Shown here piece after piece: positions 6,357 to 58,137 of a stretch of DNA of 64,000 nucleotides. The translations under genes were made by a program, and so were the position numbers. How positions within the stretch are numbered: the stretch's first letter is position 1; the number at the start of each line of letters is the position of its first letter. This DNA comes from a virus, in the IMG/VR virus record IMGVR_UViG_3300024327_000003, positions 1-64,000 of that record. The stretch is one strand, 5' to 3'. The notes under the pieces were generated by a model, which saw only the letters and a list, made by a program, of their open reading frames with translations, had not been told where the DNA came from and searched no databases.

Positions 6357-7095
6357 TTTACCAGATAATGAATGTGAGTTAGAGACGACAGATTACTTGA
6401 GTAAAGAGATGCTAGCCGGTGCTGTACCCGATAAGCGCTTTCGTAAGCATGTAACTGACAAAGTTGTTGATGTAATTAATTCAGAGCCTGATTCTGAACT
6501 ACGAAGGGTGTTTAGAGACAATACCTTAAACTATGCTGCAGTGTTGTCGACTGGTAAGCATTCTCTATCTGCATATGTGAATGCAGTAAAGTTTGTTTCC
6601 CTTCGATTAATGGGGGATAAGGCCTCTACTGCGTATAGTAAGGTCTTTCCGGATAGATATCAGAATCTGATAGATCGAGGTGCCAGTGCTTCGTATATTG
6701 CCAGCTTCGCGGACAATTACAGTAAGAACAGCTTAATTACGAAGATTATGGAGCAAACCATGATCCCAACTCATATCCTAAACGCCGGAATATACCAGGA
6801 AGCTATTAATTGCCAGGCAGGGCTAATGCGAACTGCTAAATCAGAAATGGTTCGGCAGAAAGCAGCTGAGAGCCTTATGACTAATTTAGCAGCACCTGCT
6901 GCAGCTAAAATAGAAATTGATATCACCCACAATAACGATATGCTGCAAGACCTTCGTGATACCACCCGGGCTCTGGCTAAACAGCAATTGAGTTTGATTA
7001 TGAATGGCCAGGCCTCAGCCACAGAGATAGCGCATAGTGAAATCTTAGTTAAGAAGACTATTGAAGATGCTGAGGTTATCGATGTTGGAAACTAA
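6337..7095 (+). CDS. Probable terminase small-subunit-like protein
   Basis: About 252 residues, helical. Its N-terminal part is acidic, the middle (residues ~60-130) is a helical DNA-binding-like region, and the C-terminus is a long helix. It sits upstream of the large terminase with only a dehydratase and a 62-residue gene between, the place where a small terminase subunit would be expected; no specific motif proves it. GAGG sits 7 bases before the ATG at 6337, which is preferred over the in-frame ATG at 6325. Confidence 0.5.
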   Translation: MDQQLANLPDNECELETTDYLSKEMLAGAVPDKRFRKHVTDKVVDVINSEPDSELRRVFRDNTLNYAAVLSTGKHSLSAYVNAVKFVSLRLMGDKASTAYSKVFPDRYQNLIDRGASASYIASFADNYSKNSLITKIMEQTMIPTHILNAGIYQEAINCQAGLMRTAKSEMVRQKAAESLMTNLAAPAAAKIEIDITHNNDMLQDLRDTTRALAKQQLSLIMNGQASATEIAHSEILVKKTIEDAEVIDVGN

Positions 7096-7513
7096 TATTT
7101 TAGATCTATTGCCTCAACGCTATCCGTTCTTAATGATCGACCGGATCATAGAATTAAAGTCCGATAGTATTATCACGCTTAAGAATGTTACGCACAACGA
7201 ACCCCACTTTGAAGGTCACTTCCCTGATAATCCTATAATGCCTGGAGCTCTTATTTTAGAAGCGCTAATGCAAACCAGCATATTGCTAGCTAAATACGAT
7301 ATTGAAATAGATAGTCGCGCAATAATGTATGTCACCACCATGGATAAAATACGCTTTCAGAAACCTGTATTACCGGGAGATCAAATGCATTTAAAAGTAT
7401 CTCGAGTAGGAGATATGGGATCAACTATCCGATTTGCAGGCGCTGCCTGGGTAGGTAAATATATAGTTGCTCAGGCAAGCTGGACTTCTATGCTTGTCAG
7501 TCCGGGATTATGA
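7082..7513 (+). CDS. fabZ: FabZ-like 3-hydroxyacyl-ACP dehydratase
   Basis: 143 residues, the usual size of FabZ hot-dog dehydratases, which remove water from 3-hydroxyacyl-ACP in fatty-acid synthesis. Family marks are LLPQRYPFLMIDRI near the start and HFEGHFPDNPIMPGALILEA; His46 and Glu60 have the 14-residue spacing of the FabZ catalytic pair. GAGG lies six bases before the ATG at 7082, so this start is preferred to 7061. It overlaps the upstream gene by 14 bases and the downstream one by 4, so it is a true member of the packaging operon. The other acyl-chain genes are 12 kb downstream. Family very likely; substrate unknown. Confidence 0.93.
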   Translation: MLETNILDLLPQRYPFLMIDRIIELKSDSIITLKNVTHNEPHFEGHFPDNPIMPGALILEALMQTSILLAKYDIEIDSRAIMYVTTMDKIRFQKPVLPGDQMHLKVSRVGDMGSTIRFAGAAWVGKYIVAQASWTSMLVSPGL

Positions 7514-7698: not shown

Positions 7699-9283
7699 AA
7701 AGACAGTAGATGAGTATCTAAATGCTATCGATTATAATGACGATCCTAATTACGTGCCTAGCCAATTTGCCCTTGAATTTATATCATTTGTTAAACTAGT
7801 TAATGGCGAGAAAGGGGAGGAACATAAGACCCCGGTCATCCATTATAAGATGGTCGACAAGATCGCCGGCAAACACCAGAATACAGCTAATATGTGTTTT
7901 CGCGGATCCGCTAAAACAAGTATATTTGCTGAATATTTGTTTCTCTATCTGGCTGTGTATGGTGAAATTCCAGGGTTTGGTACGGTACCGTACGCCCTGT
8001 ACGTATCTGATAGTATTGACAATGGCGTTAAAAAGATGCGATTACGTATCGAGCGTCGATGCCAACGCAGTGTGTTCCTAAAAAAATATCTTATTGAAGC
8101 CAAATTTACTGATATCAGATGGTATTTTAAGAACGCTGACGGTAATGAATTTGTCGTTACTGGCCATGGCGCCAAGACCGGTGTCCGGGGAACAGTTGAA
8201 TTAAATACTCGGCCGAACCTGGCAATACTCGATGATTTAATTGACGATGATGACGCCCGGTCCGAGACGGTTATTAGCAATGTCGAGGATACAGTCTATT
8301 CAGCTATTGATTACGCCCTGCATCCCAATAAACGCAAAATAATCTGGTCCGGAACACCATTTAATGCTAAAGATCCTCTATATAAGGCAATAGAATCGGG
8401 GGTTTGGTATGTAAACGTTTATCCAGTTTGTGAAGCTTACCCGTGCGCTGAAAAAGATTTTAGAAGTGCCTGGCCAGATCGATTTACTTTCGAATATGTT
8501 AAGGGCCAATATGATAAAGCTTTCGGCGTAGGTAAATTAGACTCCTTCCAACAAGAGCTCATGCTTCGTATCATGTCGCCGGAAGACCGCCTGGTGAAAG
8601 ATTCAGACATGGTCTGGTATAAGCGCATTCATGTGCTTAAGAACAAAGGCGCTTTCAACTTCTACATAACCACAGATTTCGCTACCAGCGATAAGCAATC
8701 ATCTGATTGGAGCGTAATTAACGTATGGGCCTTAAATAATAACGGCGACTTCTTGTGGACTGATGGATTCTGTAAAAAATGCCTCATGAAAGAAACGATA
8801 GATGAATTATTTCGTTTAGTTCAAGATTATAAGCCGCAAGAAGTAGGAATTGAGATCGACGGACAACAGGGTGGATTCATCTCCTGGATCCAGAATGAAA
8901 TGGGATATCGAAATAATTATTTTACGTTATCTACTGGTAAAAATAGCAACCAATTGGGAATTAAGAGCAATAAAGACAAAATGAGTAAATTCCAATTAAA
9001 TGCTATTCCGCTCTTCCAAAGTAAGAAAATATGGTTTCCTGAGGAATTAAGAAAAAGCGAAGAATTAGCAGAGTTGCTTTTGGAGCTATCTTTAGCTACT
9101 CTTAAGGGGTTCAAGAGTAAGAACGATGATCAGCTTGATTCGATTAGTCAATTAGGAGAGCTGAATACTTGGAGACCGAGTGAAGTAGGTCCCCATGATG
9201 AACCTGAAGAGGAGCCTCAAGAAGACGGTATGTGGGGTAATAATGATCTTAAAAAAGTAGGCGATAGTTCCTACTTCGTTTAG
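7685..9283 (+). CDS. terL: Terminase large subunit
   Basis: 532 residues, the length of the N4 large terminase (gp68). It pumps DNA into the prohead and cuts it. N-terminal ATPase: FRGSAKTS around Lys77 is the Walker A, and ILDDLIDDDD around Asp183-Asp184 the Walker B. C-terminal RNase-H-like nuclease: TTDFAT at Asp331, an acidic EIDGQQGG strand and a late DDQLDS. The last ~40 residues are acidic. Overlaps the preceding small gene by 14 bases, consistent with coupled translation. Confident. Confidence 0.95.
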   Translation: MELIKKTVDEYLNAIDYNDDPNYVPSQFALEFISFVKLVNGEKGEEHKTPVIHYKMVDKIAGKHQNTANMCFRGSAKTSIFAEYLFLYLAVYGEIPGFGTVPYALYVSDSIDNGVKKMRLRIERRCQRSVFLKKYLIEAKFTDIRWYFKNADGNEFVVTGHGAKTGVRGTVELNTRPNLAILDDLIDDDDARSETVISNVEDTVYSAIDYALHPNKRKIIWSGTPFNAKDPLYKAIESGVWYVNVYPVCEAYPCAEKDFRSAWPDRFTFEYVKGQYDKAFGVGKLDSFQQELMLRIMSPEDRLVKDSDMVWYKRIHVLKNKGAFNFYITTDFATSDKQSSDWSVINVWALNNNGDFLWTDGFCKKCLMKETIDELFRLVQDYKPQEVGIEIDGQQGGFISWIQNEMGYRNNYFTLSTGKNSNQLGIKSNKDKMSKFQLNAIPLFQSKKIWFPEELRKSEELAELLLELSLATLKGFKSKNDDQLDSISQLGELNTWRPSEVGPHDEPEEEPQEDGMWGNNDLKKVGDSSYFV

Positions 9284-9296
9284 CTAAGGGAGCAAT

Positions 9297-9974
9297 ATGA
9301 AAGTTTCGGAACTTATTAGTGATTTAGTAGCAGGACCGTGCAGTAAACTTGCTTTTGCCAGCGTAGGAGATATGGTTACCAACCCCGGGAGCCCTACTGC
9401 AGCGCAGACTTTAAATAGAAATAAGTTTATTAGATATATAAATTTAGCTAATTTAGCTATACATAAACGATTTCATTTACTCAAAAAAACATTTGAATTA
9501 GATGCACCGATCGATGAAGAAGAATTTACTTTACCTTCCAATTTTCTTGTTCCGATTCATGCATATTACGCTGATACACGCGAAGAATTAAATATCAGAG
9601 ACGATTCTACTAAACTGGTTGATGAAGTAGATACCACCGTAACGCTGCTCATGCCTGAGCCATTTAAAATAGTAATTAAAGGCGTTGATCAGACCGTGCC
9701 AGTTCATGATTTGATTATTATAAAATACGCAGCTGCTCCTGTTAAAGCTACGACAGTATTTAATACCATATCAGTTAATGAAGTATACAGAGAAGCTCTT
9801 CTCAACTACGCTTCGTATCAAGCCCACAGCTCAATTAGCGGAGATATTAAAGACGAAAATAACACTTACTATCTGAGATATGAAGCCAGCTGTAAGCAGA
9901 TTGTTCAATCCGGTATGTGGGGAAATAATGAAATAAGCATAAATCTTAAATTAGAAGAGAACGGTTTCGTATAA
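9297..9974 (+). CDS. Head-tail connector/adaptor-like structural protein
   Basis: 225 residues with a conserved-looking layout: helix-rich N-terminus (KFIRYINLANLAIHKRFHLL), then a FTLPSNFLVPIHAYY strand region and a C-terminal helix (VYREALLNYASYQAHSSISG) like many phage adaptor proteins that check layered helices under the portal. It follows the terminase by 13 bases, the N4 gp67 position. Function inferred from fold-like pattern and order. Confidence 0.7.
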   Translation: MKVSELISDLVAGPCSKLAFASVGDMVTNPGSPTAAQTLNRNKFIRYINLANLAIHKRFHLLKKTFELDAPIDEEEFTLPSNFLVPIHAYYADTREELNIRDDSTKLVDEVDTTVTLLMPEPFKIVIKGVDQTVPVHDLIIIKYAAAPVKATTVFNTISVNEVYREALLNYASYQAHSSISGDIKDENNTYYLRYEASCKQIVQSGMWGNNEISINLKLEENGFV

Positions 9975-9978
9975 TCAA

Positions 9979-10006
9979 TTGACTTATTTTTAGATTACCG
10001 TATGCT
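9979..10006 (+). promoter_or_regulatory. Candidate sigma70-like promoter for tail-appendage genes
   Basis: TTGACT (9979-9984), a 16-base spacer and TATGCT (10001-10006) lie about 75 bases before the ATG at 10080. The only gap above 100 bases in this part of the late block carries it. A small hairpin CTGG/CCAG lies between promoter and gene. Confidence 0.5.
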
Positions 10007-10079
10007 GTTCTTGCGGATAGTCTACCTACGCTGAAAATAACCTGGATATTCCAGTCAATAATGGTAGAGGAGTTAGATC

Positions 10080-10457
10080 ATGGCATATTACCCCACCATT
10101 AATTTAGTAGCCGGCGATGACAAACCTGAAATCACCGTAGTACTCAAAGACAAAAATACAGCTGCAGCAGGCTATACTCTCGATCCCGAAGACCCGGATA
10201 GCTGGGCTCTTATCGATATTTCCGATCCTACAATTACAGTATTGTTTCGTGCTTTAGGAACTACGACTACTTTAGATACTCTAGTCTGTACAAAAGTAGC
10301 TCCGTATACTAACGGGGAATTTTATGCAACTTGGGGGCTTACTACCCTAGATGTTGCTCCCGGTACTTATGAAGGCGAAATTGTATTAACTTATGTTAGT
10401 GGCCGCATTCAAACTGTCTTTGATTTACTTAAATTTAAAGTTCGAGGAGATTTTTAA
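10080..10457 (+). CDS. Tail-appendage protein with BppU-N-like Ig domain
   Basis: 125 residues. The pattern PTINLVAGDDKPEITVVLKD, followed by repeated beta-strands and a W...DVAPGTYEGEIVLTY end, is typical of the N-terminal domain of phage receptor-binding proteins (BppU-N family). It is the first gene of the tail-appendage operon and abuts the next gene. Likely a short neck or tail decoration that docks the fibre proteins encoded downstream. Confidence 0.75.
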   Translation: MAYYPTINLVAGDDKPEITVVLKDKNTAAAGYTLDPEDPDSWALIDISDPTITVLFRALGTTTTLDTLVCTKVAPYTNGEFYATWGLTTLDVAPGTYEGEIVLTYVSGRIQTVFDLLKFKVRGDF

Positions 10458-10870
10458 TGTCTATAGGTACCTCGTTAGTTAGTAAATTAAGTGGGGTTGT
10501 AACATGGGAAGATGCCAAAGCTAATATTACATTAGATTGGGATAGCAAGAATTTTAATCTAGCAGATACTGTTACGCCTTCAGATGCGTTCTTAGCTACG
10601 CTTAATAAAACCATTGCTGATCCTGCAGATATTGTTAATACAAGTGATTCTATAATCGTATCTCCCGGTATTAATATTGCTGATACACAGAGCGTAACAG
10701 ACGCATTAGTACTGGCAATCAATATTGCAATTACTGAAACTGTTATTGCATCAGATGCTATAACTGAATACGTTAATGGAACGCTTAATGGCTCAGCACT
10801 TAATACAAGACGATTAGCAGATGGAGATACGCCTGTATCAGGTACTAATATATTAATTACAATTACATAA
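10457..10870 (+). CDS. Repetitive tail-appendage protein
   Basis: 137 residues with imperfect repeats of the type 'x-IADPADI/IADTQSV/ITETVIASDAI', about 18-20 residues long. Repeats of that kind make extended beta-solenoid-like shafts in phage fibres. It starts one base from the stop of the preceding gene. No enzymatic motif. Function inferred from context. Confidence 0.65.
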   Translation: MSIGTSLVSKLSGVVTWEDAKANITLDWDSKNFNLADTVTPSDAFLATLNKTIADPADIVNTSDSIIVSPGINIADTQSVTDALVLAINIAITETVIASDAITEYVNGTLNGSALNTRRLADGDTPVSGTNILITIT

Positions 10871-10894
10871 TTTAAATAGGATACGGAGTTTATT

Positions 10895-11341
10895 ATGAAG
10901 ACGCGTAAATTTGACGAACTTAAAGTTACGGGACATTTAAAAATTTTCCTTAATGGAAAAAAAGTAAGAGATATAGACAATCTAGTAGTCACAGAAGGCA
11001 AAGAATGGATTGCATCCAGAATGCAAGGCGTTACCGATGCTGTTATGGGTTGGATGACTATCGGTACAGGTACTACTGCAGCTGTTGTTGGAGATAGTAC
11101 TTGTGAAACCCAAGTATTTCATCAAGCTCTTACTGTTTCTGGCGGCTCAGTAGCAGGAGCGGTTATTACATTTGCAACTACGTATGCAGCTGGTGATGGT
11201 ACCGGCGCAATAACTGAAGCGTGTATTACAAATAACACGACTGTAGATACTGGCGATATGCTAGCTCGAACGGTATTTGGTGTTGTTAATAAAGCTGCTG
11301 GTGATACCATGACAATTAGCTGGTCAGTAACTATTTCCTAG
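10895..11341 (+). CDS. Tail-fibre-associated structural protein
   Basis: 148 residues with an N-terminal basic strand region (KVTGHLKIFLNGKKVRDIDN) and a Gly/Thr-rich beta C-terminus, the pattern of short phage tail or fibre-attachment proteins often found before the fibre gene. ATACGGAG precedes the ATG. Exact family not recognised. Confidence 0.65.
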   Translation: MKTRKFDELKVTGHLKIFLNGKKVRDIDNLVVTEGKEWIASRMQGVTDAVMGWMTIGTGTTAAVVGDSTCETQVFHQALTVSGGSVAGAVITFATTYAAGDGTGAITEACITNNTTVDTGDMLARTVFGVVNKAAGDTMTISWSVTIS

Positions 11342-11352
11342 GGAGAATTATT

Positions 11353-12516
11353 GTGTTAGTAAAATTTTCAAATAATGTTGCCACAGCCCTAACTAATAGT
11401 ATTACAGATTCAGCTACGTCATTTGATTTAGATGACGTATCTGCTTTGCCTACGATTATATCGGGAGAGCATTTTTATCTTTCTATACTTAGCGGGGGCA
11501 ATGGAGAAATTGTTAAAGTAACTGGTGTAGCTGGTAATACGATTACTTGTGTACGAGGGGTAGATGGTACGTCTGGGACTGCTGGCTTAGCTGCTGATGT
11601 AGTTGAGTTACGCATTACAACTGCAATGCTTACGGATGCATTCGATGCCATTAGTGATTTAGCTCCTGCGTTACATTTTCTTTTTGAAACAACTACTACG
11701 GATGCAGACCAGGGTGCCGGATTAGTATCTGGAAATAATGCTACTTTTGCTTCTTCAACAATTTTATATATTACAGATGAAGACGATAACGGTGTCGATG
11801 TTTCTGGACAAACTTCTACTTGGGGAGATTTTGCTGGAGTTGGAACAGCAGTTAGAGGAACTATTGTTATTAGATCAAAAGAAAATCCAACAACTCGATA
11901 TGTTGCATTTCATATCAATGGCGCTTTAACAGACGGAACTGGTTACTGGAAATTCCCGGTAGCAAATGTTTATACTGCAGGCGTTTTGGTTGACGCTGAG
12001 CCGGTTACTATTGAATTTATTCAAGCTCCGGCTCAATCTGCATCAGCTACTTTAGCTGGAATTGTTGAATTACTTACCAGTGCTGAAGCTATTACTGGAA
12101 CAGATACCACAAGAGCTATGACTGCTGCAGCATTTCGAGCAGCGCTAGTGGACGGTAATGATACTATTTTAGGTAAGTTTAATCTTAAAGACTTTGGAAT
12201 GATTACAGTTGCTAAAGGCAATCTGGGAGCAACTCCTGCTTTTGATTTATCAGCTGGCAATTGTCAAACTGGTACTGTAGATGAAGCTATTACATCATCA
12301 ACTTTTACTAATCCGACTGGCTCAGATGAGCTCTGCTCATTTATTCTTTTCTTAACTAATGGAGGCGCATTTTCTGTGGCATGGCCTACAAGTGTTGATT
12401 GGGCCGGAGCAAGCGCACCGAGTTTGGTGGCTTCCGGAGTAGATATTTTAGCTTTTCATACTTATGATGGTGGAACTATTTGGCATGGAATATTGTTATC
12501 TGGAGATTCTAGCTAA
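11353..12516 (+). CDS. Tail fibre/appendage protein
   Basis: 387 residues. The N-terminus (SITDSATSFDLDDVSALP and VTGVAGNTITCVRGVDGT) is a small beta domain typical of virion attachment, and around residue 240-265 it has AGIVELLTSAEAITGTDTTR followed by AMTAAAF, the repeat seen in many phage side-tail fibres. The C-terminus is a Thr/Ser/Trp-rich beta domain, probably a tip. It overlaps the start of the RCC1 gene. Likely part of the receptor-recognising appendage. Confidence 0.8.
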   Translation: MLVKFSNNVATALTNSITDSATSFDLDDVSALPTIISGEHFYLSILSGGNGEIVKVTGVAGNTITCVRGVDGTSGTAGLAADVVELRITTAMLTDAFDAISDLAPALHFLFETTTTDADQGAGLVSGNNATFASSTILYITDEDDNGVDVSGQTSTWGDFAGVGTAVRGTIVIRSKENPTTRYVAFHINGALTDGTGYWKFPVANVYTAGVLVDAEPVTIEFIQAPAQSASATLAGIVELLTSAEAITGTDTTRAMTAAAFRAALVDGNDTILGKFNLKDFGMITVAKGNLGATPAFDLSAGNCQTGTVDEAITSSTFTNPTGSDELCSFILFLTNGGAFSVAWPTSVDWAGASAPSLVASGVDILAFHTYDGGTIWHGILLSGDSS

Positions 12517-13643
12517 TGTTTATATTTGGTGGTCCTAATTTTCTAATACCACAACCTACTTCAGGCAAATTGTTTGGATGGGGTAAGAATGCTTTTGGGT
12601 GTGTAGGGGATGGTACAACAACAAACCGTTATTCGCCTGTGCAAATCGGCTCCAACACAAATTGGAGTGGAGCTAAAGGCGGCTATGCCTTTACGTGTGC
12701 GATCAACACAGCGGGAAAAGCCTATGCGTGGGGTGAAGGTGCGGATGGTAGATTAGGAACAGGATCAACCACTGACACTTGTTCACCAAATCAAATTGGT
12801 GCGTTGACCGATTGGGTTCCGAAAGGCCCGTTTGCTATTGGTGGCACAAGGTATGGGATGCACTTTATCAAAGCCAATGGAACATTGTGGGCGTGGGGAA
12901 AAAATAGTTATGGGCAGATAGGTGATGGAACAACAACTGCAAGAAGTTCACCAGTACAGATAGGAGCCTTGACCACTTGGAGATATGTTTCTGCGGGAGC
13001 CAGTGAACACGTTATTGCAATTACCACTAGCGGGACTATGTTTTCGTGGGGAAGCGGCAGTAGTGGAAGAACAGGACATAGCAATACCACATCTTATTGC
13101 TCACCTGTCCAGATAGGAGCCTTAACCACTTGGGCTAGGGTTAGATGTGGTGGTTCTTCTGGCAACTGGGCTGTAAGAACTGATGGGAAAATGTTTACTT
13201 GGGGCACAGGAACAGGGGGACAGTTAGGACTTGGCAACACTACTGCTTACTCATCTCCAAAACAAGTGGGGGCCTTAACTACTTGGGCTTCGTCAATAAG
13301 CGGTACGCATCATGGCGGTTGTATAAAAAGTGACAACACCCTTTGGTCATGGGGAAGTGGTGGTAGTGGTCGAACGGGTCATAACAACACCACGGATTAT
13401 TCATCTCCGGTACAAGTAACAGCTCCGGCTGTGACATGGCTTTATGCAGATGCAGGACAGTACTCTACTATGGGACAAGATGTAGATGGCTATCTTTATA
13501 TGTGGGGTGATGGCGCACAAGGACAGCAGGGCGATGGTATCGGTTCTTCTGTGTCTTGTCCCAAACAGTTAGGAACAGAGAAGTGGCTTTCTATGCAATA
13601 TATTTCAATGGCAAATAAACATAAACATCAAATACGAACATGA
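12516..13643 (+). CDS. RCC1-repeat beta-propeller protein
   Basis: 375 residues made of seven repeats of about 50 residues. Each has a [W/F]WG.G..G..G.G.TT..SSP.Q[IV]G-like core: GWGKNAFGCVGDG, AWGEGADGRLGTG, AWGKNSYGQIGDG, SWGSGSSGRTGHS, TWGTGTGGQLGLG, SWGSGGSGRTGHN and MWGDGAQGQQGDG. Seven blades are expected to close a propeller. In phages such propellers lie among tail genes and may bind surface glycans. Lies between a tail fibre and a sulfotransferase, and its DNA is visibly richer in G+C than its neighbours. Confidence 0.9.
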   Translation: MFIFGGPNFLIPQPTSGKLFGWGKNAFGCVGDGTTTNRYSPVQIGSNTNWSGAKGGYAFTCAINTAGKAYAWGEGADGRLGTGSTTDTCSPNQIGALTDWVPKGPFAIGGTRYGMHFIKANGTLWAWGKNSYGQIGDGTTTARSSPVQIGALTTWRYVSAGASEHVIAITTSGTMFSWGSGSSGRTGHSNTTSYCSPVQIGALTTWARVRCGGSSGNWAVRTDGKMFTWGTGTGGQLGLGNTTAYSSPKQVGALTTWASSISGTHHGGCIKSDNTLWSWGSGGSGRTGHNNTTDYSSPVQVTAPAVTWLYADAGQYSTMGQDVDGYLYMWGDGAQGQQGDGIGSSVSCPKQLGTEKWLSMQYISMANKHKHQIRT

Positions 13644-15412
13644 TATATTTTCTCTCATCACTACCAAGATCAGGAAGCACTTTGCTGGCATCATTGCTAG
13701 GGCAGAGAGAGGATACGCACGTTTCAAAAACGTCTAACCTGTCTGAAACTCTAGGGGCTGTTTACAACACTATTCAGAATAGTGGGGCGACAAAAGCAGA
13801 AGGCGGCACAGATGAAGATACCTTCCGTGCGCTTGAGGGGATTGTTAAAGCCAAGTATGCCACCACAGAAAAAGAATTTATCTTCGACAAAGATAGGATG
13901 TGGCCTAACCCTAACATTATGCCAATAATGAGAGAAGTGCAGGGCGGGGGCGCACCTAAAATTGTCGCAACCGTAAGACCTATTGTTGAGTGTATCGCAT
14001 CTTTTTATTTGATTGACAAGTCGGAGCTTTCCCCTAAAGAGTGGGTTAGAACTTCTCATCTATTTAAACATTTAATGGAGTCATATAAAACTCTACAGGA
14101 AGGCTATCAGCTTGCCCCTAAAAACTTTTGTATTGTAGAATATGACAATCTTGTAAATGACCCACAGAAAGAATTAGATCGTATTGCAGATTTCATTGGG
14201 ATGCCTCATATTGACTACAAGCCTGAGATTGAGCAAGTAGAAGAAAATGATGAGGTGTGGGGGATAGAGAATCTACACACTCTGTCACCAGAGATTCATA
14301 AAAATCATATAAATGCAAGGGCTGTTCTAGGGCAAGAGCTTTACGATCATTATTCTGGTGGTGAGTTTTGGAATGACAAGCCAGAGCCAGTTAAACCTCC
14401 GCAGGTTCTTGACTTGACCCTAGAGGCTGGCCTTCATGGGCATTTTGAAAAAGCTGAAAGCATGTTACGGCAAGAGATCAAGGTAAACCCCGGCAACGAA
14501 AGAGCGCAATTCAATCTTGGGCTATACGACATGATGAATGGCAACCAAGTCAGAGGCTATAGGCAGTTTGAGTATGGCAGGACTATGAATGTCTATGGCA
14601 ACAACAACACAGCCAAGACTGCTATGCCTAGATGGGACGGTAAGCAACCGGGAACAATCTTGATGGATATGGAAGGCGGTTATGGCGATCAGTTTTTCTA
14701 TATTCGCTTTGCTAAAGACATTGTTGACCGAGGGAATAAATTAATTGTTTCTGGATGTGAGTGGCTTTCTAATATTATGCGAAGCGTGGAAGGCGTTGAC
14801 ACCTTTTGTATGCACCAAGGGTCAGAGTTTGTTTATCATAACTACTGGCTCCCCTCAATGTCTGCCCCTTTAGTGATGGACTTGGAGTATTCTGATATGA
14901 GGGGGGAGGCTTATATCCCTAGGGTTTGCCCAAGTGAAGGGAAGATCGGGGTCAAGTGGGCTGGCAACCCAAAGTTTGAACACGAACAACATAGGCTGTT
15001 CCCTAAAGAAATGATGTGGGATGTTGTAGAGGGGTTCGATGTTATATCATTCCAACGTAATGATGAGACAGGCGAAACAGAAGGCCCAGAGTGGATGGAG
15101 AAAGCCGACCTCTTTTCATGGGATATAACAATGAAAGAGCTGAGTAAGTGCGACCTGTTGCTTACTTCTTGTACTGGGCTAGCGCATCTTGCTGGGGCTA
15201 TGGGGATTGAGACTTGGATTGTCACTCCATTGCTCCCCTATCATACTTGGGCAGTACCGGGGAATAAAAGTCCGCATTATAACAGCGTTACTTTATTTCG
15301 ACAGGAACAGTATGGAAATTGGGATAAGCCATTTTGGAATTTGAAGAAAGCCTTTAGACAGAGAATGTGGAAAACAAAAGATATTGAAGATGAACTTTTA
15401 TTGCATATATAG
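13640..15412 (+). CDS. Sulfotransferase fused to TPR and glycosyltransferase-like half
   Basis: 590 residues in three parts. Residues 1-260: PAPS-dependent sulfotransferase; SLPRSGSTLLASLL (residues 7-19) is the 5'-phosphosulfate loop and IVEYDNLVNDPQKELDRIAD the later family segment. Residues ~265-310: TPR-like helices (AESMLRQEIKVNPGNERAQF). Residues ~310-590: a GT9/GT41-like region with IGVKWAGNPKF and LLTSCTGLAHLAGAMG, which resembles the nucleotide-sugar binding end of ADP-heptose-type glycosyltransferases. Together this suggests sulfation and possibly glycosylation of a surface or virion polymer. Overlaps the RCC1 gene by four bases. Fusion is clear; substrates unknown. Confidence 0.88.
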   Translation: MIYFLSSLPRSGSTLLASLLGQREDTHVSKTSNLSETLGAVYNTIQNSGATKAEGGTDEDTFRALEGIVKAKYATTEKEFIFDKDRMWPNPNIMPIMREVQGGGAPKIVATVRPIVECIASFYLIDKSELSPKEWVRTSHLFKHLMESYKTLQEGYQLAPKNFCIVEYDNLVNDPQKELDRIADFIGMPHIDYKPEIEQVEENDEVWGIENLHTLSPEIHKNHINARAVLGQELYDHYSGGEFWNDKPEPVKPPQVLDLTLEAGLHGHFEKAESMLRQEIKVNPGNERAQFNLGLYDMMNGNQVRGYRQFEYGRTMNVYGNNNTAKTAMPRWDGKQPGTILMDMEGGYGDQFFYIRFAKDIVDRGNKLIVSGCEWLSNIMRSVEGVDTFCMHQGSEFVYHNYWLPSMSAPLVMDLEYSDMRGEAYIPRVCPSEGKIGVKWAGNPKFEHEQHRLFPKEMMWDVVEGFDVISFQRNDETGETEGPEWMEKADLFSWDITMKELSKCDLLLTSCTGLAHLAGAMGIETWIVTPLLPYHTWAVPGNKSPHYNSVTLFRQEQYGNWDKPFWNLKKAFRQRMWKTKDIEDELLLHI

Positions 15413-15421
15413 GAGTAGGTT

Positions 15422-15904
15422 ATGGCACAGGGAAATCATGTTTTAGTTGAAGGCGGGGTTGTTGTTTGGGGACCTGGAGAACTTCCTCGAAGTTGGAAGA
15501 ATCATTCAGGCTTGAATATGAAAAGTGTTGCTGATCTTAAAACACTCGGTTGGTTACCATGGTCAGAAGTGCTTATCCCCTATGACAATAAAACGCATTA
15601 CCGGGATGACTACACTCACGATATTCAAGCAGATCAGGTTATTTACACTGATATTATCAGGGCATTTACAGCTGAGCAGTTAACGCAAAATAACTGGAAT
15701 GACTGGTCAACTGAAATGAGTGAAAGTGATCGATTACTAAATCCCACTTCAGAGGGGGTACAACTTCCTCGGCAAATTGAAGATGTCGTGAATATGCTGA
15801 TTAATAAGTTTCCAAATATTTTGGACGAAGCAGGAAACGAAAAGATGAAAGAACGTTATGATGCAAAAAGGGCGTTAAGAGGCATTAAGCCTCCGCAACC
15901 ATAA
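15422..15904 (+). CDS. Tail-fibre-assembly-like or small virion protein
   Basis: 160 residues. The N-terminal two thirds (LVEGGVVVWGPGELPRSWKN, KTLGWLPW, FTAEQLTQNNW) resemble short phage fibre-associated or fibre-assembly proteins, which repeat 'V.NGVV.NI...P' themes. The C-terminus is helical and charged. AGGAGTAGGTT precedes the ATG. It closes the appendage operon. Function inferred. Confidence 0.6.
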   Translation: MAQGNHVLVEGGVVVWGPGELPRSWKNHSGLNMKSVADLKTLGWLPWSEVLIPYDNKTHYRDDYTHDIQADQVIYTDIIRAFTAEQLTQNNWNDWSTEMSESDRLLNPTSEGVQLPRQIEDVVNMLINKFPNILDEAGNEKMKERYDAKRALRGIKPPQP

Positions 15905-15928
15905 TTAATTATTGATACGGAGTTTCTG

Positions 15929-16165
15929 ATGCCAGATAGACTTTCGCCAATAGAAATTGACGAGTTAGCTGAAGCTATAGTGAAGAAGAGCTCAGAAACT
16001 GAATTCTATGTGGATCCGAAACTTCATTATAATCAGCATGAACGTTTAGAGCGGTTACTGGATGCATATGATGCAGCTAGTAATGTAATATTCAAATTTT
16101 TTATAGGGGCATGTTTAGTAGGACTGGTAGGATTCGCTGCTATGGGCCTGGGGTGGCACAAGTAG
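15929..16165 (+). CDS. Small tail-anchored membrane protein
   Basis: 78 residues: charged, helical N-terminal 50 residues and a hydrophobic segment at the C-terminus (VIFKFFIGACLVGLVGFAAM). This looks like a C-tail anchor in the inner membrane. It is the first of a run of small membrane proteins next to putative lysis genes, so a holin, pinholin or spanin-partner role is plausible but unproven. Confidence 0.65.
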   Translation: MPDRLSPIEIDELAEAIVKKSSETEFYVDPKLHYNQHERLERLLDAYDAASNVIFKFFIGACLVGLVGFAAMGLGWHK

Positions 16166-16190
16166 GAACATTTATCCCAGGAGGCATACA

Positions 16191-16532
16191 GTGGATGATT
16201 TAGACAGCATACGAACTTTGGTAACGTTAGCTGGCGTATTCGCATCAATAGCAGGTGCTTGGTGGCTTATGCGTTACCAAATTAATGAAATAAGAAAATC
16301 TATTCAAGAATTACGAGTAGATAAAATTTCAATGTGGAAAAAAGTAGATATTGGCCATGAAAAAGTTTCATTACTGGTACAGCAACAAGGAGTTATATCA
16401 GGAATGTTAAGACCTGATGCAGTAGCAGAGCAAGTAAGTAAAATGACTACTATGGAAGTTGAATTAAAATATTTACGTAGAGACGTTGACGAAGTAAGAG
16501 TATTTACAATACTAAAAAAGGAACCTAAATAA
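16191..16532 (+). CDS. N-anchored coiled-coil membrane protein, possible inner spanin
   Basis: 113 residues. A GTG start is supported by AGGAGG six bases upstream. Residues ~8-28 are one membrane segment (LVTLAGVFASIAGAWWLM) and the rest is a charged, mostly helical periplasm-sized domain with long heptad-like stretches. That is the architecture of an i-spanin, and a lipoprotein lies 1.2 kb downstream. Start of the next gene overlaps its stop. Confidence 0.65.
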   Translation: MDDLDSIRTLVTLAGVFASIAGAWWLMRYQINEIRKSIQELRVDKISMWKKVDIGHEKVSLLVQQQGVISGMLRPDAVAEQVSKMTTMEVELKYLRRDVDEVRVFTILKKEPK

Positions 16533-16705
16533 TGGCACAAGATACCAGTACCAGTACTAATATTAATATTAAAACCAGTACTCTTGTTACTGGTCTTGCT
16601 ATATTAATTATTGGTATTCTAGGTTGGTCATTAAAAGGCAATTACGATAGTATTCAGCGACAATTAACTAAACAATGGGAAAAGATTGACGCCATTGAAA
16701 AGTAA
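16532..16705 (+). CDS. 57-residue single-pass membrane protein, holin candidate
   Basis: Starts MAQDTSTSTNINIKTSTLV, has one hydrophobic helix (residues ~18-33, LVTGLAILIIGILGW) and a charged C-terminal helix ending in Lys. The ATG overlaps the stop of the previous gene. Length and layout fit small holins or antiholins; no signature proves it. Missed by ORF callers because of its length. Confidence 0.65.
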   Translation: MAQDTSTSTNINIKTSTLVTGLAILIIGILGWSLKGNYDSIQRQLTKQWEKIDAIEK

Positions 16706-19161: not shown

Positions 19162-19608
19162 TTATGGTTTAACTTTATGAAGTTCTGTATCCCCTTTAAG
19201 ATATGGCGGCACCGGGTCTGGATATTTCTCAAAAAGTTTATTTACAATTTGCTGCATGTCTGCCTTATCAGTTTCTACCATTGAAACTGGTGGACGGTCG
19301 TCATTACATAAACCCCGCATTTGGGCATCGCGCAGTACTATCAAAGAAGCAATAGCCTTGGTTATGTGGTGGAGGCCACTGTCAGGGTCGATATCTTGAC
19401 CTTCCCAGTAATCTAATATATGCCCTATAGTAGCGTCGATATAAATACCGGCTCGAACACCGGCAACTCTATAATTATGCCGGCCGTACTTCATCGAACC
19501 TTCCATCATGCCTACACTTACTTCACGAAGTACGTTACCAGGTACATTTGTATAAAGCCTGGGTTTCTTAACAGCTATTCCATCTTTGGGGTTTGTTTCT
19601 TTTTTCAT
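19162..19608 (-). CDS. dATP/dGTP diphosphohydrolase-like protein (former DUF5664)
   Basis: 148 residues. The pattern NPKDGIAVKKPRLYTNVP, MMEGSMKYGRHNYR, GHILDYWEGQDIDPDSGLHH and ITKAIASLIVLRDAQ is that of the DUF5664 family, now described as a dATP/dGTP diphosphohydrolase-like (MazG-fold) group. Such enzymes trim the nucleotide pool; the family is also found beside purine-modification genes in phages, but none of those genes is visible here. It is the only leftward gene inside the late block, and TAGGAGGTTAC precedes its start. Function from family knowledge. Confidence 0.85.
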   Translation of the reverse strand: MKKETNPKDGIAVKKPRLYTNVPGNVLREVSVGMMEGSMKYGRHNYRVAGVRAGIYIDATIGHILDYWEGQDIDPDSGLHHITKAIASLIVLRDAQMRGLCNDDRPPVSMVETDKADMQQIVNKLFEKYPDPVPPYLKGDTELHKVKP

Positions 19609-19697: not shown

Positions 19698-20051
19698 ATG
19701 AGTGAAACATTTAAAGAAGAAGATTTTAGTACTTCGTCGTTTGATTTTACAGATGAGCAATTCTTATGCATCATCAACCATTTATTCAAATTGGATGCCC
19801 CTATGGGTGAAGATTTTGTTCCGATTGAGACAATGGATGAAGAAATTACTATCGAAAAATTAGATAGCTTGAGTGCTGTAGTTTTCTTTATCTGGATCTC
19901 TGAACTATTTGGGATCCCTGAAGACATGGTTAATGACTACATGGTGTCCGGAAAAAATACCGGCCGAGATTTAAAAGATTTTGTGATGAAGAACGCTACT
20001 CATACATATACTTATAAAGAAGCCGTAGAGTACAGCAAACGATGCTTTTAA
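19698..20051 (+). CDS. Acyl carrier protein
   Basis: 117 residues, longer than the usual 75-85 because of a short N-terminal extension and a C-terminal tail. The attachment motif Asp56-Ser57-Leu58 (in EKLDSLSAVVFF) carries the serine that receives 4'-phosphopantetheine, followed by the acidic helix II typical of ACPs (FIWISELFGIPEDMV). The host phosphopantetheinyl transferase would have to activate it. Its 3' end overlaps the ketosynthase start, so the two are one operon. Recognition is by motif plus partner gene; confident. Confidence 0.9.
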   Translation: MSETFKEEDFSTSSFDFTDEQFLCIINHLFKLDAPMGEDFVPIETMDEEITIEKLDSLSAVVFFIWISELFGIPEDMVNDYMVSGKNTGRDLKDFVMKNATHTYTYKEAVEYSKRCF

Positions 20052-21058
20052 CCCACACTAATTCTGTATATTCTGAAAATATTTCTTTATTGGATTACGT
20101 TACGTATCCCCAATACGTACATGTCGTTAATAACGGTGGAGGACCCCTGGTTAAAAAGGGAATTAAAACAGCGTGCGAAGAACTGGTTAACTACGTATTA
20201 CAAGGTAAACATGGAGCTACTCCAGGAACTTTTGAATTTTTACGCAAGTGCACGGAGTCAGAATTCAATAAAGTAGGCCTTATATTGGCTGCCGGGGGTA
20301 CGCATTGGATGGGGCATTTAACTAGCGTTAAATGGTCAGATCAATATCCTACCTATAAAATACCGGTAATGGCTGAAACGCAGATCTACGCCGGCTCAAT
20401 AGCTAATAAGATCGGAGAATTTGAATATATCTCTACCGACGCCACAAGCTGCATCAGTGGACATTCCGCTTGGTACACAGCCCGTAACCTCATGAAAGTA
20501 GGGGCTTTAGATACAGTTGTTATTATCAGCGTGGATGACGGTATTTCAGAAGACTATTTGTCGATATTTGGAGAATTTGGGTTATCTAAACTAGTCGACG
20601 AAGAGAATAACCCAGCTATTACTAAGTTTAGGTGCGGCCAGGCCTGTAATATATCGGTATTTGAGACTGGGTATTCTGCCTGGAATAACGAACATAAAGT
20701 TATTGCCCGGATTGAGGATATGTATATTGGTGCCGAATCGCATAATACGCCTTTAGGTATATCAGCTTCTGGATCCGGATACCGTAAAGTGATAGATAGG
20801 GTGTATACTGATAAGATTGATTTTGTTAAAACTCACAGTACTTTCTCCGAGGATAACAAAATAGAGGAAATCCTTATTAAAGAATTATTTGGGGATATTA
20901 AGACAGTGAATTATAAACTACGTATCGGTCACACTATGGGGGCATCTACAGCTGTTGAAACTGCATTAGCTATCCAGGAAGAATCTGGCACGTTTTTAAG
21001 TTTAGGCGCCGGCATGGGTAATGTATTTTCATCTGCAGTGGTGAAAATTGAATCATGA
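20042..21058 (+). CDS. Beta-ketoacyl-ACP synthase (FabB/FabF-like)
   Basis: 338 residues, somewhat short for FabF (~410) because the N-terminal half is compact. Thiolase-fold elongating enzyme that condenses an acyl chain with malonyl-ACP. The catalytic set is complete: Cys137 in DATSCISGHSAW, His265 in DFVKTHSTFSEDNK (the HGT-like motif), Lys292 and His297 in KLRIGHTMGAST. The gene overlaps the ACP stop and itself overlaps the next gene's start. It was compared with chalcone-type and FabH-type synthases; the two-histidine layout fits FabB/FabF better. Substrate unknown. Confidence 0.92.
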   Translation: MLLTHTNSVYSENISLLDYVTYPQYVHVVNNGGGPLVKKGIKTACEELVNYVLQGKHGATPGTFEFLRKCTESEFNKVGLILAAGGTHWMGHLTSVKWSDQYPTYKIPVMAETQIYAGSIANKIGEFEYISTDATSCISGHSAWYTARNLMKVGALDTVVIISVDDGISEDYLSIFGEFGLSKLVDEENNPAITKFRCGQACNISVFETGYSAWNNEHKVIARIEDMYIGAESHNTPLGISASGSGYRKVIDRVYTDKIDFVKTHSTFSEDNKIEEILIKELFGDIKTVNYKLRIGHTMGASTAVETALAIQEESGTFLSLGAGMGNVFSSAVVKIES

Positions 21059-21453
21059 TGTTTTCTCACGTTAATTTAATCCAAGAAGGCGAATCTGCAC
21101 TGTTTTATAGGTTTTCCCGGGAATTGCACGGTTACATGATAGCCGGCATATTCATTGCTCCGGATCTAGCTTCTAAAATGAATTTTGCTAAGATTTGGAA
21201 ATACTTCGTATCTTCGGTGGTTCAGGCAGACGATATCTATTGCTCTATTCTTTTAGGAACACAGAACTCAATGTTTAGTAATTATTTAGATTATCATGAT
21301 ACAATCAATGGGCTTAAGATATATAAAGTTGATAATTATCTTAAAGAACAATACAGTAGTTATGACATGCAAGCGAAGCGAGCTAAGAAGAGGCGCGATA
21401 TAGTACATATGACAAACCCTAAAAAATCCATTAAAGAGAGTATAAATCCATGA
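21058..21453 (+). CDS. Third gene of the acyl-chain operon, unknown function
   Basis: About 131 residues (an alternative ATG lies three bases earlier). N-terminal two thirds are compact and hydrophobic-aromatic (FYRFSRELHGYMIAGIFIAP, then IWKYFVSSVVQADDIYCSIL), C-terminus strongly basic (AKRAKKRRDIVHM). It overlaps the ketosynthase stop and the portal start, so it is co-translated with both. An acyltransferase that uses the ACP-bound chain is the obvious guess but no GNAT or HlyC motif is visible; a small virion protein is the alternative. Confidence 0.6.
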   Translation: MFSHVNLIQEGESALFYRFSRELHGYMIAGIFIAPDLASKMNFAKIWKYFVSSVVQADDIYCSILLGTQNSMFSNYLDYHDTINGLKIYKVDNYLKEQYSSYDMQAKRAKKRRDIVHMTNPKKSIKESINP

Positions 21454-23531
21454 GTGACGAAGATGTTGGATTTGAAATAGATTTAATAGATACAGATGCG
21501 AGTACTCTAGTGGATTGGGAAAATCCACCTAGTCTTGCAGATCTTAAAGCAGATTTGGAATCCGCTCAAACTGCTCATAGTATTCATACTCTGGAAGTAG
21601 ATAATTGGATAAGAGTACTTGAAGGCAAACAAACTATTAACGCTAAGCGAGGTCGATCTAAATTAGTACCTAAGCTAGCGCGTAAGCAAGCTGAATGGCG
21701 TTACGCAGCATTATCAGAACCCTTCTTGTCTACCGACGACGTATTTAACACTTCCCCTGCTACCTTTGAAGATAAAGAGAAAGCCGAACAAAACGGCATG
21801 GTATTGAATTATCAGCTCAATTGCCGTATGGATAAGATTGGCTTTATAGATAATTATATTAGGACTGCAGTAGATGAAGGTACTGTAATAGTGCGTGTTG
21901 GTTGGGAATTCGAAAAGGGCATACGTACGGTTTACGAAGACGTATTCGAAGATCGATTAATGCAGGACCCTCAAACAGGACAACCTGCCTTGGATCCGTC
22001 TGGTGCGCCGCTATTAGAAAGGGTTAAAACTGGCCAAACAGAATCAGAACAAGAAATAACTATTAAAAACCAACCTGTATTAACAGTCTGCGATTATAAT
22101 AATTTAGTATTAGATCCCACCTGCGAAGGCGACATAGATAAAGCCAGCTTTGCTATTTACAGCTTTGAAACCTCATTATCCGAACTTAAGAAAGACGGTC
22201 GGTATAAGAATTTAGATCAAGTTAATTTCGAGAATGCTTCGGTATTAGCTGAAGCTGATCATAAAGTTAAAACTGACGATACTTCGTTTACTTTTAAAGA
22301 TAAAGCTCGTAGGAAGGTAGTTGCTCGGGAATACTGGGGATTCTGGGATATTGACGATACCGGAGAGGTTAAGCCATTTGTCGCCACCTGGGTAGGGAAG
22401 ACTTTTATTCGATTAGAAGAGAACCCCTTTCCGGATAAGAAATTACCCTTTGTATTAGTTCAGTATTTGCCCCGACGTCGAAATGTCTATGGTGAACCTG
22501 ATTCAGCTCTTATTGAAGATAACCAGAAGATCGTAGGAGCAGTAACGCGAGGAATCATTGATATCATTGGGCGTAGTGCGAGTGGGCAACAGGGCATCCG
22601 AAAGGATGCGCTGGATGTTACCAATGCAAGGAAATTTGAGCGGGGTGAAGATTTTAAATTTAATGCAAATGTGGATCCTAAAGTGGCATTTTACATGGAG
22701 ACATACCCGGAAATTCCTCGTTCTGCCATAGAAGTAATCCAGATGCAGAATAACGATGCAGAGGCTTTAACAGGCGTTAAGGCCTTCACACAAGGTATTT
22801 CTGGCCAGGCCCTGGGAGTTACAGCAACTGGTATTAGATCAGCCTTAGATGCTACTTCCAAGCGGGAATTAGGTATCTTACGCCGGCTGTCCAATGGAAT
22901 GACTCGAATTGGCCGTAAAATCATCTCTATGAATTCAGAATGGTTGGAAGACGAAGAAATCATTCGTATTACCAACGAACAATTAGTAGAGATCGATCGT
23001 AATGATTTAGGCGGTAAATACGATATTAAGCTTAATATTTCAACAGCTGAAGCAGATGAACAAAAAGCCAGCGAATTAGCATTTATGTTACAAACTGTAG
23101 GCAATAATATGCCTATTGAAATGACTCAGATGATTTTGTCAGATATTGCTAAATTGCGTAAAATGCCTGAGTTAGCTAAACAAGTTCAGGAATACCAGCC
23201 TCAACCAGATCCTATAGCCCAGGAAAAAGCTCAATTAGAAGTAGAATTACTACGAGCTCAAATAAGCAATGAGATCGCTAAAGGACGCGAGAATGAAGTA
23301 GATGTGGGTCTCAAGACAGCTAAAACTGCAACTGAAGAAGCTAAAGCACGGCAGATGCATAGCGATTCTGATAACAAAGATCTTGATTTTGTTGAGAAAG
23401 AATCTGGAGTAGCTAACCTTCGAGATCAGGATGCTGCTGAAACAAAACATGCTCAAGATATGGAAGGTAAAGAGCATGATAGATTATCTGCTCTTGACAA
23501 AGAAGCATTCAGTGCGTTAAATAAAGGATAG
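21450..23531 (+). CDS. Portal protein
   Basis: 693 residues, close to the N4 portal (gp59). The N-terminal domain has FHQ/LSTDDVFNTSP-like wing segments, the middle carries 'TVCDYNNLVLDPTCEGDIDKA' spread over two strands, and the C-terminus is a long charged coiled coil (residues ~590-690) that may reach into the head. It lies upstream of scaffold-like and capsid genes, as in N4. Forms the ring at the special vertex and docks the terminase. Assigned by length, order and general pattern. Confidence 0.85.
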   Translation: MSDEDVGFEIDLIDTDASTLVDWENPPSLADLKADLESAQTAHSIHTLEVDNWIRVLEGKQTINAKRGRSKLVPKLARKQAEWRYAALSEPFLSTDDVFNTSPATFEDKEKAEQNGMVLNYQLNCRMDKIGFIDNYIRTAVDEGTVIVRVGWEFEKGIRTVYEDVFEDRLMQDPQTGQPALDPSGAPLLERVKTGQTESEQEITIKNQPVLTVCDYNNLVLDPTCEGDIDKASFAIYSFETSLSELKKDGRYKNLDQVNFENASVLAEADHKVKTDDTSFTFKDKARRKVVAREYWGFWDIDDTGEVKPFVATWVGKTFIRLEENPFPDKKLPFVLVQYLPRRRNVYGEPDSALIEDNQKIVGAVTRGIIDIIGRSASGQQGIRKDALDVTNARKFERGEDFKFNANVDPKVAFYMETYPEIPRSAIEVIQMQNNDAEALTGVKAFTQGISGQALGVTATGIRSALDATSKRELGILRRLSNGMTRIGRKIISMNSEWLEDEEIIRITNEQLVEIDRNDLGGKYDIKLNISTAEADEQKASELAFMLQTVGNNMPIEMTQMILSDIAKLRKMPELAKQVQEYQPQPDPIAQEKAQLEVELLRAQISNEIAKGRENEVDVGLKTAKTATEEAKARQMHSDSDNKDLDFVEKESGVANLRDQDAAETKHAQDMEGKEHDRLSALDKEAFSALNKG

Positions 23532-31098: not shown

Positions 31099-33168
31099 AT
31101 GGCTAAAGTGATTGATTACCAGAGAGCTCACCAAATAAGAGCGGCTGATAGTTCAGGTATTTTAAATAACATACGCAATACCAATAAAGATATTATTGCC
31201 AGTCTTGGCGGTATGGTTAATACCGGCGAAGAGGCATTAGAAGATTATGTTACTAACGCTACAGATAAATTCCAAGTACAAGCCGCTCAGTTAAAAACTG
31301 ATGAAGCACGGAAAGCTCTGTTAGCTAATAGCGATCAATCGTTTTTAGATCTCGATGATATTAGCAAAGGATTTGTTGATGCTCAAAATCAAGATTTTAG
31401 AGTATCGGCCGAAGGCCGTGCAGTAGCAGCTGAGGGTCGAGCTGTAACAGCAGACGAACGAGATATCCTACAAGACGCAGTAACTCTCGATACCACTAAA
31501 GAAGCATTACGGCACAGCAAAGAAATCAATCCTGTTTCTTTAGATCAAGCAATACAGTCATTAGATGCCAGTAAAAAAGAAGCAGCACATCTTGAAGCTC
31601 TCCGTCCTGGAGCATTAATTAAACAAGGTCAAGAAATTACCAAAAACAGTTTAGATACGTTTGGTCAATTACAAGATATAGATTTAGCTGAAAAAATAAA
31701 TCCACTCAAAGTAGAAGGAGAACAGTACAAAACTAAATCTGCTAAATATCAATCAATCTCAGATAAACGAGGCCTTAAATATAAACGAGAAGAGCACGAA
31801 GCTCTGAAGCAAGATGCTATAAATAAGCAACGTATCTTTGAACAAGAATCTCAGGCTTTAAGTGATGCAAGAAAGCGAGCTCAAACTAAAGATGAGCAGG
31901 ACAAAATTGATAACGCTCAAAAAAATTTAGAGACTAAACGTATAAACGATGAATACGATAATAACGTTGCTTATAAAGCTCTCAAATTAGCAAACGATCA
32001 GGCAAGAGAAGAAAATGTGCGTAAAGATCGAACAGATAAAATAGCTGTTCAAGATAGCATAGCTGCTTTTCAGCCTAGTGGTAATTTAGATAACGATATT
32101 GCCGCATATGATGTCTTAAGACAGGGCGCTATTGACGGAAGAATGTCTGAAGAAAACAAAGCATTACTTAAACCTATCGAAGATAGATTAGTAGATCGAT
32201 ATTCTACTGATATTGATGCTAGGTTAGAGCGTCTTACTGGCGAATCTACTTCTACACTTAAGGAAAACGCATACACATTTGACTTATATAAACAATTGCG
32301 CGATGGAATTGTTGGAAATTTAGGACAACCAAGTAAATTTCATTGGATGACTGAATCTCAATTAGAAACAATTGCTGATAAAGCTATCAATGATAATAAT
32401 CCTGCGAAAATAAAATTTCGTCGAGTTACTCAAGCACTTGAACTTAAAAATAAATTAGAAGCCAGATCTAGAGAAACAGTTGCAAAGAAATATGATTTAA
32501 ACCAAGAAGATATTGAAACACTAAATCGTGATCCTGAAGCCAGTATTTATGATCGTGTACAGACTCGGTTGAAAGATGTTGATTGGGATAAAGAAAATAT
32601 TCGAGCATTGCGAAACAGCATTTCTAATACGTTTATAAAACTACGCAAGGCACTACCTGGATTATCACTTGAAGGACAAGAACAATTAAATTTAGGTGTA
32701 TTAGATTTGTATGCAAAAGCTAATTTTAATCAGGATTATATTCCTTATAATCATAATGATTTTTCATTAGCTGACGATAAAGAAACAGATATTTCTGATC
32801 GAGAAATTCCTGCATTATTTCAAGTTATACAAAGAAGTTTTGGTAAAAAGACAGATTTAGGAGATGCAATTGCTGCAATAGATGCTGCAACTGCTGAAGC
32901 TAATAAGAAGAAAAGTCAGCTAGAGAAAAGTGCTGAAAAAGTAACTCCGAAGGGATTAACAAAAGAAGAATACAGAGCTAAAAAGAAAGCTAATTTAAAA
33001 AAATATGAACAAAATCTTAAAAATGCATTAAGTCCTGATCCAGAAGCAGTAGCTAAATTAGAAGCAGCAATTGCTGCTCTAGATCCTAATGATCCTAAGG
33101 ACGCTATACAATTAAAACGATATAACCGAGTTAATGATGTTAAAAAATTCTTTGGATTTGGGAAATAA
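31099..33168 (+). CDS. Coiled-coil internal virion protein
   Basis: 689 residues, strongly charged, helical, with short tandem repeats near residue 100 (SAEGRAVAAEGRAVTADERD). Long coiled-coil segments between ~150 and 320 and a Lys-rich C-terminus. No enzymatic motif. The stop overlaps the start of the virion RNA polymerase gene (TAATG), so the two are translated in step; it is probably a DNA-ejection or core protein packed with the polymerase, in the N4 gp51/gp52 slot. Confidence 0.75.
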   Translation: MAKVIDYQRAHQIRAADSSGILNNIRNTNKDIIASLGGMVNTGEEALEDYVTNATDKFQVQAAQLKTDEARKALLANSDQSFLDLDDISKGFVDAQNQDFRVSAEGRAVAAEGRAVTADERDILQDAVTLDTTKEALRHSKEINPVSLDQAIQSLDASKKEAAHLEALRPGALIKQGQEITKNSLDTFGQLQDIDLAEKINPLKVEGEQYKTKSAKYQSISDKRGLKYKREEHEALKQDAINKQRIFEQESQALSDARKRAQTKDEQDKIDNAQKNLETKRINDEYDNNVAYKALKLANDQAREENVRKDRTDKIAVQDSIAAFQPSGNLDNDIAAYDVLRQGAIDGRMSEENKALLKPIEDRLVDRYSTDIDARLERLTGESTSTLKENAYTFDLYKQLRDGIVGNLGQPSKFHWMTESQLETIADKAINDNNPAKIKFRRVTQALELKNKLEARSRETVAKKYDLNQEDIETLNRDPEASIYDRVQTRLKDVDWDKENIRALRNSISNTFIKLRKALPGLSLEGQEQLNLGVLDLYAKANFNQDYIPYNHNDFSLADDKETDISDREIPALFQVIQRSFGKKTDLGDAIAAIDAATAEANKKKSQLEKSAEKVTPKGLTKEEYRAKKKANLKKYEQNLKNALSPDPEAVAKLEAAIAALDPNDPKDAIQLKRYNRVNDVKKFFGFGK

Positions 33169-53653: not shown

Positions 53654-53726
53654 AGCCCTTAGATGGGTTCAAACCACCGACCTAAGCTTTACAAGAGCTT
53701 TGCTCTGCCAGCTGAGCTATAAGGGC
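53654..53726 (-). tRNA. tRNA-Thr (anticodon UGU)
   Basis: A complete cloverleaf on the minus strand: acceptor GCCCTTA/TAAGGGC, D arm GCTC-AGCTGGCA-GAGC, anticodon stem AAGCT/AGCTT around loop CTTGTAA (anticodon TGT), a short variable loop and T arm GGTGG-TTTGAAC-CCATC. The CCA end is not encoded. It reads ACA threonine codons, frequent in AT-rich genes. It stands right before the structured non-coding region. Confidence 0.92.
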
Positions 53727-56711: not shown

Positions 56712-56719
56712 AAATACCT

Positions 56720-58125: not shown

Positions 58126-58137
58126 AATAAGCACCTC

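Follow-up and report, generated by a model that had tools for sequence, protein, structure and literature searches.

Several phage systems with genes of fatty-acid synthesis have been described. Clusters of fabG, acpP and fabF were reported in Rhodobacteraceae prophages (PMC8224337), and viral fabF and fabZ genes are documented (PMC8224337, PMC10653327). Genes for an acyl carrier protein (ACP) were reported in phages R22Y and R6L (PMC11705849, PMC5463345), and the R22Y gene is presented there as an auxiliary gene (PMC11705849). Membrane roles have been proposed for phage fatty-acid genes in these studies (PMC8224337, PMC10653327, PMC11705849).

We analyzed a stretch of 64,000 nucleotides, referred to as the window, which corresponds to bases 1–64000 of the 74,681-base virus record IMGVR_UViG_3300024327_000003. 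It carries an ACP gene, a ketosynthase (KS) gene and a small third gene in succession, and a FabZ gene elsewhere. The earlier note on this DNA knew of no phage system that joins an ACP, a FabB/F-type KS and FabZ. This holds only for the particular cassette: the fabG-acpP-fabF prophages and viral fabF and fabZ are published, and the viral contig L071 (IMGVR_UViG_3300046804_004121; region 8136–16644) joins all three, with acpS, FabZ, ACP and KS within ~4 kb. No prior description of the ACP-KS-third gene cassette was found in the literature outside subscription journals and preprints. Thus, what appears to be new is a conserved virus-specific cassette tied to virion genes, phage fatty-acid genes themselves being already known.

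The Rhodobacteraceae prophage clusters (PMC8224337) resemble the window in having a phage-borne ACP gene adjoining a KS gene, but they keep an E. coli-like fab order with fabG, whereas the window cassette is virus-specific, has no fabG and stands in a virion-gene context. L071, also viral, likewise combines FabZ, ACP and KS on one contig; it differs in being an unrelated contig with a distinct 408-aa KS, its own acpS (found only there among the virus records searched), a desaturase-like ORF nearby and no adjacent portal gene seen. The cultured Alteromonas phages R22Y and V19 are Schitoviridae in which the ACP gene overlaps a small conserved gene of ~168 aa, ahead of a large ORF. Unlike in the window, their ACP gene is far from the portal gene and no KS was found, the search covering 45 kb of R22Y. 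No discussion of the partner gene of the R22Y ACP was found in the accessible part of the report (PMC11705849).

Gene organization in the window

The features considered here are as follows.
7082–7513, + strand: FabZ (3-hydroxyacyl-ACP dehydratase); Pfam FabA 2.2e-26, PDB FabZ 3e-31
19698–20051, + strand: ACP, 117 aa; Ser57 in LDSL is the phosphopantetheine site; PHROG 28189 (unknown function)
20042–21058, + strand: FabF-type KS, 338 aa; Cys137-His265-Lys292-His297; PHROG 35856 (unknown function)
21055–21453, + strand: third coupled gene, 132 aa; tentative GNAT-like acyltransferase; PHROG 28689
21450–23531, + strand: portal protein (N4 gp59-like), directly downstream of the third gene; late-block context
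33168–45794: 4208-aa ORF; giant virion protein gene, candidate vRNAP

Both the ACP and KS ORFs are present where the earlier note had placed them, with 10 nt in common. The KS stop codon is overlapped by the start of the third gene (21055), and the portal gene begins at the end of the third gene (21450). The window portal and major head protein (MCP) match families of known Schitoviridae and, together with the giant virion protein gene, they identify the virus by sequence as an N4-like (Schitoviridae) phage. The proposed setting in the late block of such a phage agrees with this, as the portal gene adjoins the cassette. The cassette had also been credited with its own promoter. This was not borne out, and a sigma70 promoter was rejected, as 10 sigma70-like sites were counted against 8.7 ± 3.1 in shuffled sequence, which is the chance level. 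A phage-type promoter may lie in the AT-rich gap of ~90 nt ahead of the ACP gene.

Other features of the window were recorded. A protein with a dATP/dGTP diphosphohydrolase N-terminal domain is encoded just ahead of the ACP gene on the opposite strand (19162–19608, −). Seven RCC1 repeats (E 2e-52) were detected in an ORF among the virion genes (12516–13643, +), and a sulfotransferase domain (Pfam 3.5e-13) at the N-terminus of a 590-aa ORF (13640–15412, +). DNA polymerase A was matched by two separate ORFs (58138–59844 and 56004–56711, −) with small ORFs between them, one of which (57631–58134) contains an AP2 domain, as in some homing endonucleases; the polymerase gene (56004–59844, −) is possibly split or interrupted by an intron. 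The only tRNA found was tRNA-Thr (tgt; 53654–53726, −).

Properties of the ACP, KS and FabZ

Pfam recognized neither the window ACP alone nor its family. When the family profile was compared with the PDB, the matches listed were almost exclusively ACPs (best E 8e-4), in agreement with the earlier reading of the protein as an ACP with an Asp-Ser-Leu attachment motif. DSL was invariant in 20/20 aligned members, and DSL or DSM was kept in 110 of 112 distinct ACP ORFs, the other two being truncated fragments; all intact copies therefore have the attachment Ser. The dN/dS of the ACP was 0.02–0.10 where computable among the N4-like relatives. The protein resembles type II ACP (AcpP) in its DSL motif, acidic character, single domain and match to ACP profiles, and differs from it in having longer N- and C-terminal tails.

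The window KS alone retrieved ketosynthase/FabF structures as its best PDB matches (phmmer, E 1.8e-6) and fell below the Pfam cut-off. A profile of 22 phage KSs retrieved FabF structures at 3e-29 over most of the length. C137, H265, K292 and H297 align with C164, H304, K336 and H341 of E. coli FabF (numbering counts Met), in keeping with the Cys137/His265/His297 set given by the earlier note, and all four residues were invariant in 104/104 full-length sequences, including that of the window. The same note had allowed that the protein might be only a distant thiolase-fold homologue with Cys and His out of register; they were found in register instead. A decoy KS lacking Cys/His was rejected on the same 104/104 count, and so was a chain-length-factor type with an altered triad for the viral set, the triad being intact in the alignment as well. 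With a dN/dS of about 0.06–0.08 in the N4-like relatives, the KS, like the ACP, is under strong purifying selection. The window KS is thus assigned, by its sequence, to the KAS I/II (FabB/FabF) type with intact catalytic residues. It shares family membership by profile and the Cys-His-His triad plus Lys in register with FabF/FabB, but it is shorter (338 aa versus 413), with a short N-terminus and a missing C-terminal segment, and the viral KSs lie on a long branch away from the cellular KSs sampled. Compared with the lineage B KS (see below), the window KS lacks some 26 residues close to its C-terminus.

The FabZ gene, for which no coordinates had been given, was located at the position listed above. 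The mechanical ORF begins at TTG 7061, and ATG 7082 is the likelier start. The protein has a FabA/FabZ domain, with the catalytic His and Glu in GHFP...PGALILE. FabZ also lies upstream of the terminase gene, as in the window, in four relatives (L067–L070). Among N4-like records with TerL, FabZ was present in 4/6 with KS and upstream sequence (G000, G045, G048 and G049; not in G028 and G047) and in 0/6 without KS (G033, G035, G036, G040, G043 and G044); these numbers are small, G045 and G049 are possibly one virus and some contigs are fragments. Searches for PPTase, FabD and FabG homologues were negative both for the virus record of the window and for the further records of lineages A and B that were covered, and the controls were detected. 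Loading and feeding of the ACP would therefore fall to host enzymes.

Distribution in two phage lineages

A search of viral contigs with the KS yielded two groups. Lineage A is the clade of the window and consists of marine N4-like phages, in which the cassette adjoins the portal gene. Lineage B consists of phages of ~55 kb like MW202545 (Manatee Spring), the first one met, in which the cassette lies between the gene of a 'phage stabilization protein' and long virion-like genes. Nearly all complete loci of both lineages have the order ACP-KS-third gene, and the KSs are only ~30% identical between lineages.

Ketosynthase matches of 23–28% identity were also obtained in unannotated Listeria, Enterococcus, Staphylococcus, Pseudomonas and faecal 'phage' records (H4–H20); these look like host DNA and not phage genes. 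Since some phage-labelled records seem to hold such host-like FabF (Listeria/Enterococcus/Staphylococcus matches), host contamination or misassembly was considered for the cassette too. The window KS has only 19% identity to E. coli FabF, and the same gene order stands beside portal or virion genes in many viral contigs. This explanation was rejected as extremely improbable on the basis of synteny across many independent contigs.

When loci were anchored on the third gene, ACP and KS were both found in 75/76 lineage B loci with enough upstream sequence, a count that is partly ascertained, as these loci were fetched by pattern from KS-linked genes. Among 51 scorable lineage A loci, ACP was present in 51 and KS in 39; the remaining 12 scored N4-like loci keep ACP and the third gene and miss KS. 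In the sampled loci, the third gene is thus tracked by ACP more closely than by KS. Some portal-anchored N4-like relatives are without all three genes, the third gene occurs with no detected ACP in five N4-like relatives (L116, L117, L120, L132 and L134), and ACP and KS occur without the third gene in four loci (L096/L098/L100/L101). A DUF2269 membrane protein is encoded between ACP and KS in L101 (1179–1637) and in the records of L098 and L100, and just upstream of ACP in the N4-like relative L012 (1710–2195). The link between the three genes is strong in the sampled clades and is not absolute.

In 12 loci ACP stands beside the third gene without KS, which speaks for a non-catalytic or regulatory use. 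The phage ACP, alone or together with KS, would then bind host ACP partners and so hold down lipid synthesis or stress signalling, or it would act as a structural cofactor. Structural roles of ACPs exist in other systems. Against such a use, the KS catalytic residues are perfectly conserved and the FabZ motif is intact, and we regard it as very unlikely.

In a 71-sequence tree, the viral KSs grouped on a single branch, at a wide distance from E. coli FabF and FabB and four MAG ketosynthases; as the cellular sequences are few and the branches long, the rooting and the placement of this branch relative to cellular KSs are tentative. There were two exceptions: MAG contig L160, which has a phage-like gene order, fell within the viral branch, and the viral KS of L071 fell outside it. 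A scan of genome contigs gave 39 loci, and a close lineage B KS (55%, same gene order) occurred only in L160, a Balneolaceae contig, which names a possible host. Judged from these comparisons, the ACP-KS pair is a virus-specific family, apparently catalytically intact and tied to virion genes in two phage lineages. As this pair turns up again in a phage lineage unrelated to that of the window, some phages seem to produce acyl-carrier machinery of their own, perhaps in order to attach an acyl chain to something as the particle forms.

The deep virus-only branch also bears on a reading as auxiliary metabolic genes, in which the phage ACP, KS and FabZ would increase fatty-acid elongation in the host, or redirect it, to give membrane lipids suited to replication or lysis, and the third gene would have an unrelated role in morphogenesis. 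KS and FabZ do belong to the fatty-acid cycle, some relatives encode a DUF2269 membrane protein together with ACP/KS, and the membrane roles proposed for other phages in the reports cited above point the same way. However, the viral KSs are no recent copies of host genes, the cassette lies among virion genes in both lineages, and KS can be absent while ACP and the third gene persist. We consider this reading rather doubtful.

The third gene and the possible function of the cassette

The lineage B third protein gave an AlphaFold2 model with a pLDDT of 93. Foldseek against the PDB returned 70 matches at E ≤ 1e-3, starting from 5e-5, and those listed were all of GNAT type; the protein is thus predicted to have a GNAT fold. 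The model of the window third protein had a pLDDT of 57 and its top Foldseek matches were mostly GNATs at E 0.02 or worse. Because of these values, and because there is no profile similarity to the lineage B family, the tentative assignment of the window gene as a GNAT-like acyltransferase is only a lead. Profile comparison likewise did not support homology of the lineage A and lineage B third genes, which is improbable; they may be analogous. Neither family had a sequence-level match among PDB GNATs, and Pfam did not recognize the lineage B gene. The latter showed no profile similarity to T7 gp13 or to the R22Y partner gene, and no clear CoA-binding R/QxxGxG/A loop was seen by eye in A2 (lineage B third gene). 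GNAT-like genes are also found in other phages, for which no acyl chemistry is known.

LuxI, FeeM and HlyC are ACP-dependent GNAT acyltransferases. They offer a possible functional analogy, a GNAT-fold protein adjoining an ACP, the likeness drawn here being one of gene neighbourhood. Synthesis of an N-acyl compound that aids lysis or acts as a signal or toxin, as with the ACP/GNAT pair FeeL/FeeM or LuxI, would use just such parts as ACP, KS and a GNAT-like enzyme, and among the lineage B GNAT matches is the acyltransferase domain of the NRPS protein NcdE. The neighbours of the cassette are instead virion genes, with no tailoring, export or adenylation gene adjoining, and small-molecule synthesis is unlikely.

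The earlier note had left three outcomes side by side: altered membrane lipids, a small molecule, or acylation of a virion or host protein. Its enzyme roles and late-block setting stand; among the three, the conserved neighbourhood favours acyl transfer, weakly and not decisively. We tentatively propose, as the likeliest of the readings considered, that the cassette is an acyl-carrier line of the phage's own, whose expression accompanies that of the virion genes, and that its third protein transfers an acyl chain, perhaps to a virion protein. In this acyl-transfer scheme, a host PPTase would add phosphopantetheine to Ser57 of the phage ACP, as no PPTase gene was found in the virus record. The phage KS would condense malonyl units on acyl-ACP via Cys137/His265/His297, with host FabD and FabG supplying malonyl-ACP and reduction and the phage FabZ carrying out dehydration. 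The intact active sites and missing FabD/FabG genes suggest that this KS/FabZ cycle would determine which acyl chain is made or how long it is. In loci without KS, the acyl chain on the ACP would come from the host. In the least certain steps, the small third protein would accept the acyl group from ACP and pass it to an amine or hydroxyl, and the acceptor would most probably be a virion or late protein encoded in the same block of genes. The broader idea, that the two lineages share an ancient virus-only ACP/KS/GNAT-fold machinery acylating a virion or ejected protein, seems fairly unlikely.

Many uncultured phages of marine and fresh waters carry the cassette, and the ACP and small gene of R22Y and V19 are a possible cultured model for part of the system. 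Even if the cassette only redirects fatty-acid synthesis, it represents a widespread family of intact enzymes listed as 'unknown function' in PHROGs. If the broader idea of a shared ancient machinery is true, the virus would itself provide the acyl donor for its particle, in a phage version of ACP-dependent protein acylation. If a virion or ejected protein is acylated, the phage would build its own lipid-like modification instead of borrowing that of the host.
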